Shown: positions 38,211-47,084 of the stretch, one piece after another | How the letters are laid out: the number at the start of each line of letters is the position of its first letter | How positions within the stretch are numbered: position 1 is the first letter of the stretch | Source: Saccharopolyspora galaxeae | GTDB taxonomy: Bacteria; Actinomycetota; Actinomycetes; Mycobacteriales; Pseudonocardiaceae | Reading direction: 5' to 3' | DNA length: 64,000 nt | Assembly: GCF_016526145.1 (NCBI RefSeq) | Contig: NZ_JADDUE010000002.1 | Location: forward strand, 1 to 64,000 | Notes under the pieces: generated by a model | The model's input: the letters and a program-made list of their open reading frames with translations, nothing else | What the model was told of the DNA's origin: nothing | Databases searched by the model: none | Made by a program: the position numbers and the translations under genes

Positions 38211-39368
38211 ATGAGCATCACGTTGCACTGGTTCCTGCCCACCCACGGCGACGGGCGGTCCATTGTGGACCGTCCGCACGTCACCGCCACCGGTGCGAAC
38301 ACGCCCAGGCAGCCGGACGTCGACTACCTGGCGCAGGTCGCGCAGGCCGTCGAGCACCTCGGCTTCACCGGGATGCTCACCCCGACCGGCAGCTGGTGCC
38401 AGGACGCGTGGGTCACCACGGCCGCGCTGCTGGGGCGCACCAAGCGCATCAAGTTCCTGGTCGCCTTCCGGCCCGGCTCGCTCACCCCGACGCTCGCGGC
38501 GCAGATGGCGACGACGTACCAGCGGGTCTCCGGCGGCAGGCTGCTGCTGAACATCGTCACCGGCGGCGAGTCCGTGGAGCAGCGCCGCTACGGGGACTGG
38601 CTGGACCACGACAAGCGCTACGAGCGCACCGACGAGTTCCTGGCCGCGATGCGCGCGATCTGGTCCGGCGAGCCCGCGGACTTCGACGGCGAGCACTTCC
38701 AACTGCGCGGCGCCACGGCGTTCGACGTGCCCGATCCGCAGCCGCCGCTGTACTTCGGCGGCTCCTCCGATGCCGCGCTGCCGGTCGCGGCCCGGCGCGC
38801 CGACGTGCACCTGACCTGGGGCGAACCGCCTGCGAAGGTGGGCGAGCGGATCGCGCGGCTGCGCGAGCTGGCCGCCGCCGAGGGCCGCACGCTGCGGTTC
38901 GGACTGCGCGCGCACACGATCACCCGCGACACCTCGGCGGATGCTTGGGCCACCGCGCAACGGTTCCTGGAGCAGATGGATCCGGCCGAGGTCGCGGCCT
39001 CGCAGGCGAAGTTCGCCGAGACCGAGTCCACCGCGCAGCGCCGGATGGCCGAGCTGCACGGCGGGGTGCTGCACGGCGACGCGCGGAAGCTGGAGGTGCA
39101 TCCGGGCCTGTGGTCCGGCATCGGGCTGCTGCGCGGCGGTGCCGGGACCGCGCTGGTCGGGAGCCACGAGGAGGTCGCGGACCTGATGGCCGAGTACCAC
39201 GCGGTCGGCGTCGACGAGTTCGTGTTCTCCGGCTATCCGCACCTGGAGGAGGCGTACTGGTTCGGCGAGGGCGTGCGGCCGGTGCTGGCCAGCCGTGGAT
39301 TGCTCGCCGGGCACGACGCGGCGGCGGAGTCGCCGACGCGCGAACCTTCGCCGGTCCCCGCGTCCTGA
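38211..39368 (+). CDS. FMNH2-dependent alkanesulfonate monooxygenase (SsuD-like)
   Basis: A 385-residue bacterial luciferase-like enzyme that releases sulfite from alkanesulfonates. Motifs: LHWFLPTHGDGR at the N-terminus, GFTGMLTPTGSWCQDAW (Cys of the SsuD active site), FLVAFRPGSLTP, NIVTGGESVEQRRYGDWLDH, YFGGSSDAAL and the C-terminal FSGYPHLEEAYWFGEGV. Forms an operon with the binding protein (46-bp gap, AGGGAGGACG). Needs a flavin reductase encoded elsewhere. Confidence 0.94.
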   Translation: MSITLHWFLPTHGDGRSIVDRPHVTATGANTPRQPDVDYLAQVAQAVEHLGFTGMLTPTGSWCQDAWVTTAALLGRTKRIKFLVAFRPGSLTPTLAAQMATTYQRVSGGRLLLNIVTGGESVEQRRYGDWLDHDKRYERTDEFLAAMRAIWSGEPADFDGEHFQLRGATAFDVPDPQPPLYFGGSSDAALPVAARRADVHLTWGEPPAKVGERIARLRELAAAEGRTLRFGLRAHTITRDTSADAWATAQRFLEQMDPAEVAASQAKFAETESTAQRRMAELHGGVLHGDARKLEVHPGLWSGIGLLRGGAGTALVGSHEEVADLMAEYHAVGVDEFVFSGYPHLEEAYWFGEGVRPVLASRGLLAGHDAAAESPTREPSPVPAS

Positions 39369-39617
39369 CGGTCGGCTCGCCCCGGACCTGGCTCGCTGCA
39401 CGGTGACGGAACCCGGGCCCGCCGCGGCTTCTCGATCAGGGTGATACCCGTACAGCTCGTCCCGGACCCGATTCCGGATTCGTGCGGGATCTCCCTGAAA
39501 CCGGAAATGTCGAACACCCGAAAAGGTCGACGGAAAACACGAGGGAATTCCCTGAAGTGGCGTTCGCCGGTGCGCCGGCCTGGTAGGTCGTTGCGCTCGT
39601 GATGCGATGCTCGGGAC

Positions 39618-40118: not shown

Positions 40119-41222
40119 TCAGTTGATTCCGTCGCGCGCCTGCACGGCCAGGTCCGGGAAGTCGCTGAAGATCCCGTCGATGCCCTGGTCCAGCAGCAGG
40201 CCGAAGTAGCCGAACACGTCGCCGTGCCGCGCCGGGTCGGCCGAGGAGCGCAGGTCCGCGGGCAGGAAGTCGTTCTCCGCACGCACCGTGTAGGGCACGA
40301 CTTCGAGCCCCGCGGCGTGCGCGTCGGCGGTGACCGTCGTCGGCTTCGTCAGGTGGTCGCTGTCGTCGACCGGCAGCAGGACCTTGGTGTCCGGCCCGAG
40401 CACGTCGGCGTACTCGGCGATCTGCCGCAGCCCGCCGGGTTCGACCATGTCCGCGTAGGTGCGCGGGTCGCCGGCCTCGATGAAGTCCTGCGGCGCGCCG
40501 CTGTCGCTGATCAGCTGCACCAGCTCGACGCGCAGCGAACGGTCCAGCTCACGCAGGTTGCCGACCTCGAACGACTGCACCACCACCTTCGCGTCCGGCC
40601 GGTTCAGGCCGTTGTCGTCGAGCGCGCGCACCACGCCCGGCTCCAGCGGCAGCCCGATGCGGCGGAAGTGGCTGGGGTGCTTGGTCTCCGGCGCCACCCC
40701 GATGTCCCGGTGCAGTTCCCCGGACAGCCGCTTCGACAGGTCGATGACCTCTTGGAACGTCGGGACCTGGAACTTGCCGTCGTAGGCCGTGTTGTTCGGG
40801 CGCAGCTGCGGGATGCGTTCCTTGGCGCGCAGCGTCTTGAGCTCGGCGAGGGTGAAGTCCTCGGTGAACCAGCCGGTCAGCTCGACGCCGTCGATGACCT
40901 TCGTGGTCTTGCGGTCGGCGAATTCGGGGTGGTCGGCGACGTCGGTGGTGCCGCTGATCTCGTTCTCGTGCCGCGAGACCAGCACGCCGTCCTTGGTGCT
41001 GACCAGGTCCGGTTCGATGTAGTCGGCGCCCATCCGCGCGGCCAGCTCGTAGGCGGCCAGGGTGTGCTCGGGGCGGTAGCCGGACGCGCCGCGATGGCCG
41101 AAGACCTCGACCTCGCCGGCCCCGGGCCGACCGGCGGGCTCCGCGTTGGCCGGGATCGTGAGCGTGGCCAGTGCGGCCGCGCCGGCCACCGCGATGACCA
41201 GGGCACATGTCCGGATCTGCAT
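40119..41222 (-). CDS. secreted glycerophosphodiester phosphodiesterase
   Basis: A 367-residue GDPD TIM barrel that hydrolyses glycerophosphodiesters to glycerol-3-phosphate and alcohol. Signal peptide 1-28 (ALVIAVAGAAALATLTIPANA). Catalytic/metal motifs: VFGHRGASGYRPEHTLAAYE and DYIEPDLVSTKDGVLV (His, Arg, Glu, Asp), then HRDIGVAPETKHPSHF; the closing DGIFSDFPDLAV is typical. ATG at 41222 after GGAGGTCTG; upstream extensions lose the signal peptide. GlpQ-like, calcium-dependent in relatives. Confidence 0.94.
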   Translation of the reverse strand: MQIRTCALVIAVAGAAALATLTIPANAEPAGRPGAGEVEVFGHRGASGYRPEHTLAAYELAARMGADYIEPDLVSTKDGVLVSRHENEISGTTDVADHPEFADRKTTKVIDGVELTGWFTEDFTLAELKTLRAKERIPQLRPNNTAYDGKFQVPTFQEVIDLSKRLSGELHRDIGVAPETKHPSHFRRIGLPLEPGVVRALDDNGLNRPDAKVVVQSFEVGNLRELDRSLRVELVQLISDSGAPQDFIEAGDPRTYADMVEPGGLRQIAEYADVLGPDTKVLLPVDDSDHLTKPTTVTADAHAAGLEVVPYTVRAENDFLPADLRSSADPARHGDVFGYFGLLLDQGIDGIFSDFPDLAVQARDGIN

Positions 41223-41388
41223 CAGACCTCCAATGTTTCGGGCACCGGCGAGCTTCGCCGCCACGAGCGACGATCCGGACACCGGTGCCCGACGTCGCGC
41301 CGACCGCCAGGTGAAGCCACGGCGACGCGGCCGCCCGGAAGGCTCGCACGCTCTGCACCTACCCGCGCCCACCCATCCCGCGACCGCG

Positions 41389-41430
41389 GAGTGAAGGCCC
41401 CGATCCATCGGGACGAACGACCCCTCACTC
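41389..41430. repeat. 42-bp relative of the palindromic repeat family
   Basis: GAGTGAAGGCCCCGATCC... to ...GAACGACCCCTCACTC; same termini as the 51-bp elements but nine bases shorter, closest to copy 2. Confidence 0.65.
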
Positions 41431-41470
41431 GGCGCGGTCCCAGCCCGATCGGGCGACGTCGGCGCGGGTC

Positions 41471-41598
41471 GGACGCCGTGCGCCCGTGAACCATTGGACG
41501 CCGCGCGCGCTTGCGGCTCATTGGACGCCGTGCGTCCGGGGGTGCATTGGACGCCGTGCGGCCGGGGTGCATTGGACGCCGTGCGTCCGCGGCTCAGT
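41471..41598. repeat. degenerate 25-27-bp tandem repeat, five units
   Basis: Units begin GGACGCCGTGCG at 41471, 41496, 41523, 41549 and 41574 and are joined by CATT. The best copies contain GGACGC-CGT-GCGTCC, a perfect hairpin, so the tract could form serial stem-loops. It ends 138 bp before purD. Confidence 0.85.
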
Positions 41599-41736
41599 CG
41601 CCAGGGCGAAAGCCCAGCACCCGCGGCGGGCGCGGTGGCAGGCAGGTGACTGAGCGGGAGACACCGGGTGTCGCGAGGGCCACCGGCCGCCGGGGTCCTG
41701 AACCGCCCGGCCGCGGCAGGTTCTACGCTTCCGGAC

Positions 41737-42990
41737 GTGCGAATCCTCGTGATCGGTGCGGGCGGCCGGGAGCACGCGATCGTGCTGGCGCTGTCCCGCG
41801 ACCCGTCGGTGACCGCCCTGGCCTGCGCCCCCGGCAACGCCGGCATCGCCGCGCTGGCCGAGTCCTACCCCGTCGACGTCGCCGACCCGGCGTCGGTGAC
41901 CGAGCTGGCCACCGGCTGGGGCGCGGACCTGGTCGTGTTCGGGCCGGAAACCCCGCTGGTCGCCGGTGCCGCCGATGCGGTACGCGCCGCGGGCATCGCC
42001 TGCTTCGGCCCGTCCAAGCAGGCCGCCCGCATCGAAGGTTCCAAGGCGTTCGCCAAGGACGTCATGGACGCGGCAGGCGTGCCCACCGCGCACAGCGAGA
42101 CCGTGGACAACCCGGCCAAGCTCGACGCCGCGCTGTCCCGCTTCGGCCCGACCTGGGTGGTCAAGGACGACGGGCTGGCCGGCGGCAAGGGCGTGCTGGT
42201 CACCTCCGATTTCGACGCCGCCCGCGCGCACGCGATCACGCTGCTCGACGACGGGCACCCGGTGCTGCTGGAGTCGTTCCTGGACGGTCCGGAAGCCTCG
42301 CTGTTCTGCCTGGTCGACGGCACCACCGTGGTGCCGCTGCTGCCCGCGCAGGACTTCAAGCGGGTCGGCGACCAGGACGCCGGGCCGAACACCGGCGGGA
42401 TGGGCGCCTACGCGCCGCTGCCGTGGGCGCCGCCGGAACTGGCCGCGGATGTGGTCCGCACGGTCGTGCAGCCGGTCGTCGACGAGCTGGCCGAGCGCGG
42501 CACGCCGTTCTCCGGGCTGCTCTACGCCGGACTCGCGCTCACTTCGGCCGGACCGCAGGTCATCGAGTTCAACTGCCGCTTCGGCGACCCGGAGACGCAG
42601 GCCGTGCTCGCGCTGCTGCACACCCCGCTCGCAGGGCTGCTGGACGCGGTCGCCCGCGGTGAGCTGGCCGAGCAGCCGCCGCTGGAGTGGGAGCCGGGCA
42701 CGGCCGTGACGGTCGTGCTCGCCGCCGAGGGCTACCCGGGCAGGCCGCGCTTGGACGACGTGCTCACCGGCGGCGACGCCATCGGCGTGCTGCACTCCGG
42801 CACGCGCAGGCGCGAGGACGGCGCGGTGCTCTCCGCCGGTGGCCGCGTGCTGTCGGTCGTGGCGACCGGCGCGGACCTGGAGTCGGCCCGCACCGAGGTG
42901 TACCGGCGGGTCGCCGAGGTCCACCTGCCCGGCTCCCATCACCGCACCGACATCGCCCTGCGCGCCGCCCGCGGCGAAATCACCGCTTAG
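41737..42990 (+). CDS. purD: phosphoribosylamine-glycine ligase
   Basis: A 417-residue ATP-grasp enzyme of purine synthesis (PRA + Gly + ATP to GAR). N-terminal [23 protein letters not shown]-grasp motifs [15 protein letters not shown] and [15 protein letters not shown], and [16 protein letters not shown] at 41737 gives the family start. The 51-bp palindrome at 43003 follows 12 bases after the stop. Confidence 0.98.
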
Positions 42991-43002
42991 CAGCTTCTCC
43001 AG

Positions 43003-43053
43003 CAGTGAACGGACCGCTCGCCCGATCCATTGGGACCAGTGGTCCGTTCGCTC
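43003..43053. repeat. 51-bp palindromic repeat, copy 4
   Basis: CAGTGAACGGACCGCTCG... to ...GTGGTCCGTTCGCTC, between purD and the convergent 71-residue gene; could terminate both. Confidence 0.85.
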
Positions 43054-43060
43054 GGCGAGA

Positions 43061-43276
43061 TCAGCCGGGGGTGGCGGCGAACCGGGCTAGTGCGTGCGAG
43101 CCGGCTTCGACGATGCGAGCGAGCGCTTCCCGGCCGAGCAGCAGGATGAACTCGTCCCTGCCGAAGAACAGCGTGACGACTTCGTTCAGCTCGTCCACCT
43201 CCTGCCGCACCGCCACATCCGCCGCCATGTCCACAAAGGACTCCACGGACACCTTCGATGAGTCGTAGAGGGTCAT
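43061..43276 (-). CDS. small hypothetical protein beside XRE gene
   Basis: A 71-residue acidic protein (YDSSKVSVESFVDMAADVAV, VVTLFFGRDEFILLLGREAL, closing FAATPG). No family recognised. ATG at 43276 follows AAGGGAGCG; an upstream ATG at 43315 is possible. Read divergently from the XRE regulator, with a perfect palindrome in the shared promoter, so probably controlled by it. Confidence 0.6.
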   Translation of the reverse strand: MTLYDSSKVSVESFVDMAADVAVRQEVDELNEVVTLFFGRDEFILLLGREALARIVEAGSHALARFAATPG

Positions 43277-43321
43277 GACGCTCCCTTGTCGCGTGACTAC
43301 GATGAGCTTGCGCACTACAGC

Positions 43322-43342
43322 TAAGACTGACTGTCAGTCTTA
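43322..43342. promoter_or_regulatory. perfect palindrome in divergent promoter
   Basis: Arms TAAGACTGAC and GTCAGTCTTA pair perfectly around one base. Located between the 71-residue gene and the XRE/DUF5753 gene; strong operator candidate for the XRE protein. Confidence 0.7.
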
Positions 43343-43403
43343 AAGGTAGATCGGCGCCGTTCGTCTTGTAAGTCGATCTTTAGGGTGAAACCGGAGTTCC
43401 ACC

Positions 43404-44273
43404 GTGGGCCGAGCACGCCAAACGTTCGAGCGCCGTCAACTCGGCCTGACGCTGCGTCGCCTGCGCTCGGCGGCAGGCAAATCGCAGCAGGAAGCGGCCA
43501 AGACTCTTGGCAAGGCCCGCTCCAGGATCGTGCAGATCGAGGACGGCGAAGGCGCACCGCCCGCTGCGGACCTGGACGCGCTGCTCGACTTTTACGGCGT
43601 CGACCCCGATGAGCAGGAGACGGTCCGCGCCCTTGCGGCAAAGGCGCGGAAACGCCAGCCGAGGCGCTCTTACGTCGACACCCTGCCCGATGCCTTCCAA
43701 CGGTTCGCGGATGTAGAAGCGAGCGCGACGAACATCTGCACCTTCGAACCCGCCATCGTGCCGGGAATCCTGCAATCTCCGAAATATGTTCGAGCGTTGA
43801 TAGCGGAGTGGGGTGAGATATTCCCGAGCGAGTCCGCAACGGAAGTCGAAGACCGCATCGCCTTCCGCCGCGCACGACACGCACAGATCTTCGTTCCGGA
43901 TGGGCCGCAGTCCGTGCGCGCAGTCGTCGATGAGGTCGCGTTGCGCACGACCGTTGGTGATACCGAGGTGATGCGCGAGCAACTGGCTCACTTGTTGGCA
44001 CTCAACGACCGGCACGCCTGTCTCGATGTGCGTGTGCTGCGGTCGGGTGTCTTCGCGCATCCCGGCCGAGGCGGCGGCTTGACGCTCTTCGGCTTCGGTG
44101 ATCGTGGCTGCCCGGTCGCGTACTCCTCGGTGGTGTATGGGCCGTCGGTCTACCTGGACGATCAATCCGATATCGCAGTGATGTCCCGGATTTTCGAGCA
44201 CACGTATCGGAACGCGCTACCTGCCGATGAATCACGCGACCTGATCGAAAAAGTACTCAAGGAGTTCTCATGA
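43404..44273 (+). CDS. XRE/DUF5753 regulator (second copy)
   Basis: A 289-residue regulator: N-terminal helix-turn-helix (LTLRRLRSAAGKSQQEAAKT, LGKARSRIVQIEDGE), then DUF5753 (ICTFEPAIVPGILQSPKYVR, RARHAQIFVPDG, GLTLFGFGDRGCPVAYS, closing SRDLIEKVLKEFS). GTG at 43404. Codon use is less GC-biased than in neighbours, suggesting horizontal acquisition. Coupled (ATGA) to a DUF397 gene and followed by the deaminase/immunity genes. Confidence 0.9.
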   Translation: MGRARQTFERRQLGLTLRRLRSAAGKSQQEAAKTLGKARSRIVQIEDGEGAPPAADLDALLDFYGVDPDEQETVRALAAKARKRQPRRSYVDTLPDAFQRFADVEASATNICTFEPAIVPGILQSPKYVRALIAEWGEIFPSESATEVEDRIAFRRARHAQIFVPDGPQSVRAVVDEVALRTTVGDTEVMREQLAHLLALNDRHACLDVRVLRSGVFAHPGRGGGLTLFGFGDRGCPVAYSSVVYGPSVYLDDQSDIAVMSRIFEHTYRNALPADESRDLIEKVLKEFS

Positions 44274-44464
44274 GCGCTGACTGGATCAAAAGCAGCAAAA
44301 GCTCAGGCGGTAGCGACAACTGCGTGGAAGTCCGGTTATCCGCTGATCACGTAGGCGTGCGTGACTCGAAGGACCGCTCCGGCCCGCCGCTCGTGGTTCC
44401 GGTTGCGGCGTGGAATTCGTTCCTCACCGCGGCGAAGTCCGGATACCTCGACGACCCGGCCTGA
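44270..44464 (+). CDS. DUF397 small protein (second copy)
   Basis: A 64-residue DUF397 protein: WIKSSKSSGGSDNCVEVRLS, VGVRDSKDRSGPPLVV, and closing WNSFLTAAKSGYLDD. Overlaps the XRE stop codon. Presumed partner of that regulator. Confidence 0.92.
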   Translation: MSADWIKSSKSSGGSDNCVEVRLSADHVGVRDSKDRSGPPLVVPVAAWNSFLTAAKSGYLDDPA

Positions 44465-44596
44465 TCCGCGGTTCGCCGGAAAGTGCGCGGACCAGCAGTA
44501 CGAAGCTCGCCGAGCGGCTGCGAGCGGACAGGATGTCAGGGGGCACCGGCATGATCGGCGACCTGACCCGTGTTCCGACCGGTCGAGGGGGCGCCG

Positions 44597-45352
44597 ATGG
44601 CATCCGCCATGGAACAGCTCGGCGAGGGGATCGCGACAGCGATCCGCAAGATCGGTGAAGCCGCCGATCACCTCACCCAAGCGATCAGCCACTCCGACGA
44701 CGCCCACGAACACCTCGGAAGAGCGCTACAGGGCGCCGCTGCCGACGACGCGGTTGCCGCAGCACGCCAACAGCAGGCCGTGCCGCAGCAACTTGCTGCG
44801 CAACGCGAACAGATACGGCTCGCGGCGACACTGATCGACGCCTACCGGCAGAACATCGGTCTGCCCGCGGTTGAACCAACACCGAATCCCACACCGGCCG
44901 CGCCGCAGGCTGGCGAAACCGCGCCCGGGATCCAAACCCGAAGATCCGAACTCCCACGTCCTCCGCGTCCTGGCAAGACCCACGGCCGTTGGTTCACGCC
45001 CGATGGCGATGCGGTGATGCTGGAGAGCGGAAGAGGCGGACAGTACTACGGTGCCGCACGTCAGCGGGGCGTGGAGCTCGGGCTGACTTACGGGCGCCCC
45101 GGCGCTGAGCCTGCCATCGCTCGGCACCTGGAGGTTCAGTTCGCGATGCGAATGGCGGATCAGGACATCAGCCACGCTGAGATCGAGATCAACCGTCCCG
45201 TCTGCGGGAGCAGACCAGGCATCGATGATGATCTCCCCGAAACATGCGACAAGCAACTGGCACGCTTCCTGCCAACGGGAAGCACGCTGAGAGTAAAAGA
45301 TGGAAGCAGTCCAACCGGACGGCTCTACAACGGCAAGGAATGCAGACGATGA
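44597..45352 (+). CDS. DddA-like (SCP1.201) deaminase, toxin candidate
   Basis: A 251-residue protein. Residues 1-88 are a helical N-terminal domain (QLGEGIATAIRKIGEAADHL, ISHSDDAHEHLGRALQGA) like the DUF6244 type seen at the front of actinobacterial polymorphic toxins; 90-125 is a Pro-rich linker; 126-251 resembles the SCP1.201-like deaminase fold (GRWFTPDGDAVMLESGRG; catalytic HxE at H177-L-E179 in RHLEVQFAMRM; IEINRPVCG and ETCDKQLARFLPTGSTL with Cys203 and Cys217 as zinc ligands). The family includes DddA, which deaminates cytosine in double-stranded DNA. Spacing of 13 residues between the cysteines is longer than usual. The immunity gene overlaps it. Activity is inferred. Confidence 0.82.
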   Translation: MASAMEQLGEGIATAIRKIGEAADHLTQAISHSDDAHEHLGRALQGAAADDAVAAARQQQAVPQQLAAQREQIRLAATLIDAYRQNIGLPAVEPTPNPTPAAPQAGETAPGIQTRRSELPRPPRPGKTHGRWFTPDGDAVMLESGRGGQYYGAARQRGVELGLTYGRPGAEPAIARHLEVQFAMRMADQDISHAEIEINRPVCGSRPGIDDDLPETCDKQLARFLPTGSTLRVKDGSSPTGRLYNGKECRR

Positions 45353-45783
45353 CCATCGACGCTCGTTGGGCAGTGATCACCGAGGACGGCGGTGAACGGG
45401 CCGGGAACCTGCTGATAACTGACGAAGTAACGGTCGGCGAACTGGTGCAGGAGCTGTCCGATCCGATGGCCGACCTCGCACGGCTGATCCACTGTGATCG
45501 CCCCCTGTACGACGAGGAACACGGCTTCCGTGATCACGACGTGTACGCCAACGTGGTGGATGGCTTCGGCTACCTCAGCCACCAGGACCGCAACCACGAC
45601 AAGGCATACCCCGTCGGCGATCCCCGATCGGAGGGTTGCGAGTTCGACGACGACGATTTCCCGCCGGGCTCGGGCCTGCCGCTGGAGACCTTCACCGCTG
45701 TCCTCGGCGAGTTCTTGCGAACCGCTGAACGACCGACCGCGGTCACCTGGCGAGGATTCGATCCGGAAGCGGCGGCGGAATGA
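45349..45783 (+). CDS. Imm1-family immunity protein
   Basis: A 144-residue acidic protein with the Imm1 pattern: EELVQELSD-like N-terminal helix, DVYANVVDGFGYLSHQD, AYPVGDPRSEGCEFDDDDF, PPGSGLPLETFTAVLGEFLR, RPTAVTWRGF. Imm1 proteins neutralise deaminase toxins. ATG at 45349 overlaps the deaminase stop (ATGA), as expected for a toxin/antidote pair needing matched synthesis; AAGGA at 45335 is the ribosome-binding site. Confidence 0.88.
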   Translation: MTIDARWAVITEDGGERAGNLLITDEVTVGELVQELSDPMADLARLIHCDRPLYDEEHGFRDHDVYANVVDGFGYLSHQDRNHDKAYPVGDPRSEGCEFDDDDFPPGSGLPLETFTAVLGEFLRTAERPTAVTWRGFDPEAAAE

Positions 45784-45810
45784 CGAGTCCGGTCTGGCAC
45801 CCTCCCGGGC

Positions 45811-46986
45811 ATGGTTGAGCAGTCCGGTGCACTTGCGGTGGCTAGCCGCGCGAACGTCCAGCCGTTCCAGGTGATGGAGGTGCTTTCCGCCGCGGCGGCC
45901 CGGCAGCGGGTGCGCGGCGACGTCGTCTCGCTGGCCGCGGGCCAGCCCGGCACTCCGGCCCCGAAGGCGGTCCGGGAAGCGGCCGCCGAGGCGCTGCACC
46001 GCGATCCGCTGGGCTACACTGAACAACTCGGTCTGCCCGAGCTGCGCAAGGCCATCGCCGGGCACTACACCCGCACCCACGACCTGACCGTCGAGTCCGA
46101 CGACGTGGTGGTTACGACGGGTGCATCCGGCGCGTTCCTGCTGGCGTTCCTGAGCGCGTTCGACGCGGGCGACCGGGTGGCGCTGGCCCGCCCCGGCTAC
46201 CCGGCCTACCGGAACATCCTGTCCGCGCTGGGCTGCGAGGTGGTGGAGCTGCCGTGCGACGCGTCCACCCGGTTCCAGCCGACCACCGCGATGCTCGACG
46301 AGCTGGACGAGCCGGTGCAAGGCCTGATCGTGGCCAGTCCGGCCAACCCGACCGGCACGGTGCTCACCGGCTCCGAGCTGAGCGCGCTCACCTCCTGGTG
46401 CGACCGCAACGGCGTGCAGCTGATCAGCGACGAGATCTACCACGGCATCGGGTACGACGAGCCGCTGCGCTCGGCGTGGGAGTTCTCCCGCGAGGCGATC
46501 GTGGTGAACTCGTTCTCGAAGTTCTGGTGCATGACGGGCTGGCGGCTCGGCTGGATGCTGGTGCCGCCGCGGCTGCTGCGCGCGGTGGACTCGTTGACCG
46601 GGAACTTCAACCTCTGCCCACCGGCGATGTCGCAGCACGGCGCGGTCGCCGCGTTCACCCCGAGCGCCTACGACGAGGTCGCCGAGCACGTCCGGCGGTA
46701 CGAGACGAACCGGGAACTGCTGCTGTCCGGACTCTCCGAGCTGGGCATCGACAAGGTCGCGCCCGCCGACGGTGCGTTCTACGCCTACGCCGACATCGGG
46801 CACCTCACCGACGACTCGGCGGATTGGTGCCACCGGCTGCTGGAGGACACCGGGGTGGCGGTGGTTCCCGGCGTCGACTTCGACCCGGAACGGGGGCGGC
46901 GCTTCGTGCGGATGTCGTTCGCCGGCGCCACCGAGGAGATCGCCGAAGCGCTCGCGCGGCTGGCTTCCTGGCTGCGGCAACCCTGA
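45811..46986 (+). CDS. class I PLP-dependent aminotransferase
   Basis: A 391-residue fold-type I aminotransferase. PLP lysine in NSFSKFWCMTGWRLGWML; other motifs VVVTTGASGAFLLAFLSAF, ARPGYPAYRNILSALGCEVV, ASPANPTGTVL, SDEIYHGIGYD. It resembles aspartate/aromatic aminotransferases but the substrate cannot be fixed. ATG at 45811, 27 bases after the immunity gene. Confidence 0.92.
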   Translation: MVEQSGALAVASRANVQPFQVMEVLSAAAARQRVRGDVVSLAAGQPGTPAPKAVREAAAEALHRDPLGYTEQLGLPELRKAIAGHYTRTHDLTVESDDVVVTTGASGAFLLAFLSAFDAGDRVALARPGYPAYRNILSALGCEVVELPCDASTRFQPTTAMLDELDEPVQGLIVASPANPTGTVLTGSELSALTSWCDRNGVQLISDEIYHGIGYDEPLRSAWEFSREAIVVNSFSKFWCMTGWRLGWMLVPPRLLRAVDSLTGNFNLCPPAMSQHGAVAAFTPSAYDEVAEHVRRYETNRELLLSGLSELGIDKVAPADGAFYAYADIGHLTDDSADWCHRLLEDTGVAVVPGVDFDPERGRRFVRMSFAGATEEIAEALARLASWLRQP

Positions 46987-47084
46987 TTTTTCCCGGAGGT
47001 CCAGCAAATCGGGGCCCGCGACCCGGCGCGGCGCGGCTACCGTGGAAGCAGCGTTGCCGGGTGTGGAACCGGGGTGGGGCGAAG

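Follow-up and report, generated by a model that had tools for sequence, protein, structure and literature searches.

The window analysed here, a stretch of 64,000 nucleotides from Saccharopolyspora galaxeae (contig NZ_JADDUE010000002.1), carries a gene pair encoding a deaminase toxin of the SCP1.201/DddA-like family and a putative Imm1 antidote. The pair is likely to be a polymorphic toxin-immunity system for competition between bacteria, with a cytosine deaminase as the warhead. Comparison of two genomes of the species showed that the warhead and the antidote were replaced by recombination, while the N-terminal part of the toxin was kept, and the toxin lacks the published markers of family members that act on double-stranded DNA. 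The parts of the pair are as follows.

44597..45352, + strand: toxin, SCP1.201/DddA-like deaminase (PF14428), 251 amino acids (open reading frame and translation; PF14428 64.3 bits; AlphaFold2 mean predicted local distance difference test score 87.9)
44606..44854, + strand: N-terminal two-helix hairpin, residues 4-86, presumed carrier/export domain (AlphaFold2 helices 4-43 and 50-86)
44933..45328, + strand: deaminase domain, residues 113-244 (PF14428 match)
45125..45133, + strand: catalytic H177-L178-E179 (translation; E179 invariant in the 57-row alignment)
45203..45247, + strand: zinc loop C203-C217 with a 13-residue acidic insertion (translation, alignment)
45349..45783, + strand: immunity protein Imm1 (PF14430), 144 amino acids (ATGA overlap with the toxin gene)

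The identification of the two proteins is supported by profile, predicted fold and regular pairing. A sequence-only reading of this DNA had given the toxin frame, H177/E179, the two zinc cysteines with 13 residues between them and the overlapping next gene, and these coordinates and residues proved exact. It had also named a profile check, in which both proteins scored above the curated Pfam cut-offs: the toxin matched PF14428 over residues 113-244 (E 1.4e-17, against a cut-off of 25 bits), and the antidote matched PF14430 (E 2.2e-15, 57.9 bits against 22.4). The predicted structure of the toxin is a deaminase fold, with the DddA and TOD structures as the nearest solved folds, and that of Imm1 resembles DddI. 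An Imm1-type open reading frame overlapped the toxin gene downstream in all 56 relatives with flanks examined, with the identical 4-base overlap in 24. Of the 57 members of the antidote set (A2), 56 matched PF14430 at E <= 0.001, a count that is partly circular, since these frames were picked by an iterated profile seeded with this Imm1. An earlier table already pairs Imm1 with SCP1.201 deaminases as their antidote (PMC3482391). The assignment of the N-terminus to DUF6244 did not survive: Pfam gave no match of this toxin to that family at E <= 1, and only 2 of the 57 aligned members matched it weakly (best E 0.0037). NCBIfam returned two insignificant matches for the toxin (E 0.19 and 0.4) and none for the antidote.

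The toxin alignment (A1) holds 57 members and was drawn from 61 extracted toxin frames; the loci sampled were the best-scoring matches, not a random set. The alignment excludes L019, L028, L036, L054 and L060, which were in the wrong frame, near-duplicates, short or cut, and 14 loci had been skipped before extraction as self, duplicates, short, cut or with an internal stop (L001, L002, L012, L013, L014, L026, L027, L035, L042, L047, L052, L073, L074 and L075). The window's genome contains a single PF14428 gene. In the host-family sample, 147 of 297 genomes had such genes, a few of them more than ten. In the genus sample, a relative was found in three of six genomes, namely the window's own, G074 of the same species, with its copy in the corresponding position, and G001 (elsewhere, 32% identity). 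A single-protein search of genome contigs found no relative, and among plasmids a single weak match came up, on one from Streptomyces anulatus (34%, E 4e-4). We found no paper linking SCP1.201 with Pseudonocardiaceae. The toxin is ordinary for its host family, and the pair is a well-formed example of a widespread family.

The history of the locus was read from the comparison of the window's genome (G000) with G074, which concerns three further features.

43300..46500, no strand: mosaic stretch of lower GC (guanine plus cytosine) content, from purD to the middle of the aminotransferase gene (identity profile against the same-species genome; GC)
43404..44273, + strand: XRE regulator (HTH_31 and DUF5753), possible regulator of the island (Pfam; same-strand XRE upstream in 8 of 56 relatives)
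44270..44464, + strand: DUF397 partner of the XRE protein (Pfam; same-strand DUF397 upstream in 6 of 56 relatives)

The flanking proteins are nearly identical in the two genomes (purD 99.8%, MFS 99.3%, TetR 99.6%), against 48% for XRE, 92% for DUF397, 74% for the toxin and 63% for Imm1 within the island. At the DNA level, in 200-base bins, identity was 54-63% over the XRE gene and 93-96% over DUF397 and the toxin N-terminus. It fell to 55-65% across the warhead and into the start of Imm1, was 73-82% through the remainder of Imm1 and the aminotransferase gene's first half, and reached 96-100% thereafter. Within the toxin, 81 of 88 positions are identical over residues 1-88 (92%) and 103 of 162 over residues 89-251 (p 4e-7). 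For the G074 toxin, the warhead is 73% identical to its counterpart in G028, a genome of another genus, and 63% to the window's; the N-terminus is 27% identical to that of G028 and 92% to the window's. The carrier and the warhead therefore have separate histories, and the warhead and antidote moved together as a block. The XRE gene diverges on the far side of the conserved stretch, which shows that there was more than one exchange. Fast evolution was ruled out as the source of the divergence by the aminotransferase gene. In its first half, identity per 100 columns is 69-84%, a distance no smaller than that between species of the genus; past a switch near column 700 the two genomes are 98-100% identical. 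GC content was 62-68% over 43000-45999 and 69-75% on both sides. The exchange of a C-terminal warhead and its antidote behind a kept N-terminal part is the pattern of polymorphic toxins, seen here in one genome pair. The two genomes also diverge locally at 39301-39500 and 41101-41700, through an additional 1.3 kb in G074 and variability in the 5' part of the GDPD open reading frame as listed.

The closest warheads, those of L057 (same species) and of L003 and L062 (cross-genus), are 56-67% identical to the window's and are likewise followed by an overlapping Imm1 gene; N-terminal identity to the window's toxin is 92%, 26% and 8%, respectively. In L062, a warhead of the same clade (56% identity) is fused to an unrelated N-terminus; the warheads collected were all of the PF14428 family. 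The window's genome also carries three further Imm1 genes (L102, L104 and L105). L102 is 44% identical to the window's Imm1 and adjoins an RNase PH-like gene, and an XRE-like protein precedes L104, as though its toxin were missing; both neighbours were named from their translations, not from profiles.

The substrate was considered from the active site and the zinc loop. The motif of toxin deaminases is given as [HCD]xE (PMC3482391), and HLE occurs in the window's toxin alone among the 57 aligned members. The zinc-ligand His is replaced by Asp in 27 of the 57 (DVE in 25, DIE in 1 and DAE in 1; for example L007, L011, L016, L018 and L020), and Asp stands at the first Cys position in four (L010, L017, L023 and L025). 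Five residues separate the cysteines in 31 members and 11-14 in 10; the close clade of L057, L003 and L062 has 12, UmbC1 has 10, and DddA and TOD have CxxC. On the best tree the long loops call for four changes, of which well-supported branches force at least three. The sequence-only reading was right to call the loop an insertion, which it is against the usual five-residue form, but a unique insertion was ruled out, since its clade and other members also have long loops, which need several changes on the tree. The 13-residue loop of the window's toxin contains four acidic residues and no aromatic one. At the position of the intercalating Phe1375 of DddA, which by counting along the alignment we take to be the residue preceding the second Cys of the DddA CxxC, the window's toxin has Thr216, just ahead of its own second Cys, and Gln220 lies at the position of Met1379. 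An aromatic residue at the Phe1375-equivalent position was found in none of the 57 members; M, I, L, V or F is kept at the Met1379-equivalent position in 44.

These features bear on whether the toxin could be a true double-stranded DNA deaminase in the manner of DddA, which wedges a zinc-loop aromatic into the DNA and flips out the target base. The shared Pfam family and the DddA and TOD folds speak for it, so that the label DddA-like holds for family and fold, but the double-strand markers are missing. In DddA, the F1375A/R and M1379A/R substitutions abolish activity (PMC10442228), and the window's toxin has neither residue nor the CxxC loop. Double-strand activity was reported for 7 of 28 homologues screened, all selected for HVE and CxxC (PMC10587121); homologues without CxxC thus fall outside that screen as reported, and the marker is not proven necessary. 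Tails with SPKK-related motifs tracked the activity, four of four such homologues being active and four of four without them showing little or none (PMC9935910). With our own rendering of this motif, [ST]P[KR][KRSTA], no match was found in the last 45 residues of any of the 57 members; the window's toxin has SPTG. A DddA-like double-strand activity is hence quite unlikely. Single-stranded DNA is moderately favoured as the predicted substrate, because these markers are missing, because single rather than double strands are the substrate of many of the SCP1.201 members tested (PMC10847098) and because UmbC1 is mutagenic.

Among known systems, UmbC1/UmbD1 of the Streptomyces coelicolor Umbrella particle shares a PF14428-type deaminase sequence, a long zinc loop and an Imm1 gene immediately downstream. 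The 57-member profile retrieved UmbC1, TOD and DddA from the PDB sequences, with UmbC1 as the best match. The UmbC1 toxin domain causes C-G to T-A changes in Escherichia coli, and UmbD1, the Imm1 protein encoded downstream, co-precipitated with UmbC1 (PMC11062931). UmbC1 differs in size and setting: it is large, has ALF repeats and a HINT domain, and belongs to a secreted particle, whereas the window's toxin has 251 residues and a helical hairpin. DddA/DddI of Burkholderia cenocepacia differs in the CxxC loop, Phe1375/Met1379 and type VI delivery, the last a feature of DddA. The Sdd single-strand deaminases of the SCP1.201 branch belong to the same Pfam family, a likeness drawn from their description, not from Sdd sequences.

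In the proposed mechanism, the N-terminal hairpin would act as a carrier, and ESX (type VII) is the best candidate for the export system that probably recognises it. The C-terminal zinc deaminase would turn cytosine in DNA, with single strands the likeliest target, into uracil and so poison or mutate the recipient cell. Imm1, made from the overlapping start codon, would bind the deaminase as DddI binds DddA and protect the producer and its kin.

Several observations weigh against an exported DNA deaminase. Searched as a single sequence, the toxin retrieved from the PDB unrelated chains alone (E 0.53 and above), and the UmbC1 match is one of sequence, the UmbC1 toxin domain being unresolved in the published map (PMC11062931). 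The hairpin matched generic helical pairs in the PDB; its best-ranked fold matches (ESCRT-III and designed bundles) were judged generic and set aside. Secretion genes were absent beside the locus, as the sequence-only reading had stated. ESX substrates of the WXG100 type carry a WxG turn and a YxxxD/E tail. WxG was absent from the hairpin turn in 56 of 57 members, and none of the 30 members with a Tyr after helix 2 had D/E at +4. The toxin and antidote could also act inside their own cell as an XRE-linked pair.

ESX export is nevertheless plausible, because of a WXG100-SLT gene in the same slot of a congener and because of EccB and WXG100 genes in the window's genome. The hairpin fits the roughly 100-residue hairpin of ESX substrates, itself a generic shape. 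The window's genome has two EccB genes and 12 WXG100 matches, 10 of them over the cut-off. Between purD and the aminotransferase gene, G001 carries a 102-residue protein that matches no Pfam family significantly, together with a WXG100/SLT transglycosylase protein (WXG100 39.1 bits, cut-off 27.3). Similar slot frames were seen in G002-G004 by reading translations, profiles having been run on G001 (L087) alone, and no full-length counterpart of the G001 slot protein was found in the window's genome at E <= 0.001. The slot spans 7800-10050 of L087 and the same interval in L088-L090, where the toxin island is replaced.

The XRE/DUF397 pair upstream, noted in the sequence-only reading, was confirmed by Pfam. 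DUF397 is abundant (50 in the window's genome, 335 in 10 genomes), yet the six same-strand upstream cases compare with 0.15-0.30 expected, and same-strand downstream there were 0 in 56. With the same-species row dropped and L011/L039 (same genus) counted as one, four cases remain (P about 2e-5 to 3e-4), in an enrichment test devised after the window was seen. Five of the six lie within 162 bases of the toxin. Opposite-strand DUF397 gave eight matches at 6 of 56 loci, four upstream (591-1343 bases off) and four downstream, so that shared accessory regions explain part of the association. The XRE-DUF397 pair was ruled out as a constant part of the module, since in 48 of 56 relatives the fetched upstream flank has no XRE match on the toxin's strand. 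It may nonetheless control the toxin. Rfam found nothing within 42900-47000, and promoter and terminator scans were empty, such scans being uninformative in high-GC DNA.

This neighbour and the lack of adjacent secretion genes would suit an intracellular module, either toxin-antitoxin or phage defence, under XRE-DUF397 control. PADLOC gave zero matches for the toxin or the antidote, however, and the kept carrier with exchanged warhead and antidote, like the partnerless Imm1 genes, better fits exported polymorphic toxins; together with the opposite-strand matches, this makes an intracellular role very unlikely. Highly improbable is a decayed or catalytically changed deaminase, its activity abolished or redirected to RNA or free nucleotides, which the acidic, aromatic-free loop and the unique HLE might suggest, since both frames are open, the zinc and catalytic residues are kept, close long-loop relatives occur in three other genomes and UmbC1 is mutagenic with its long loop (PMC11062931).

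An extension of the exported-toxin reading would see a compact class of exported DNA deaminases, with a short hairpin in place of giant carriers, the long acidic zinc-loop arm setting a substrate choice other than that of DddA, and the XRE-DUF397 pair switching the toxin on together with chemical weapons. It is unlikely; it leans on the XRE-DUF397 regulator, and the opposite-strand matches lower its odds.

Two points are instructive: the warhead exchange documented here and the evidence that speaks against activity on double strands. Within one species, the locus provides a clean natural example of a warhead exchanged together with its antidote, marked by sharp steps in identity. The long-loop clade is at odds with the 'double-stranded' name of the family, and its strand preference is testable; it could add to the deaminases available for base editing. 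That XRE-DUF397 recurs as a neighbour hints that protein toxins may be tied to antibiotic control.
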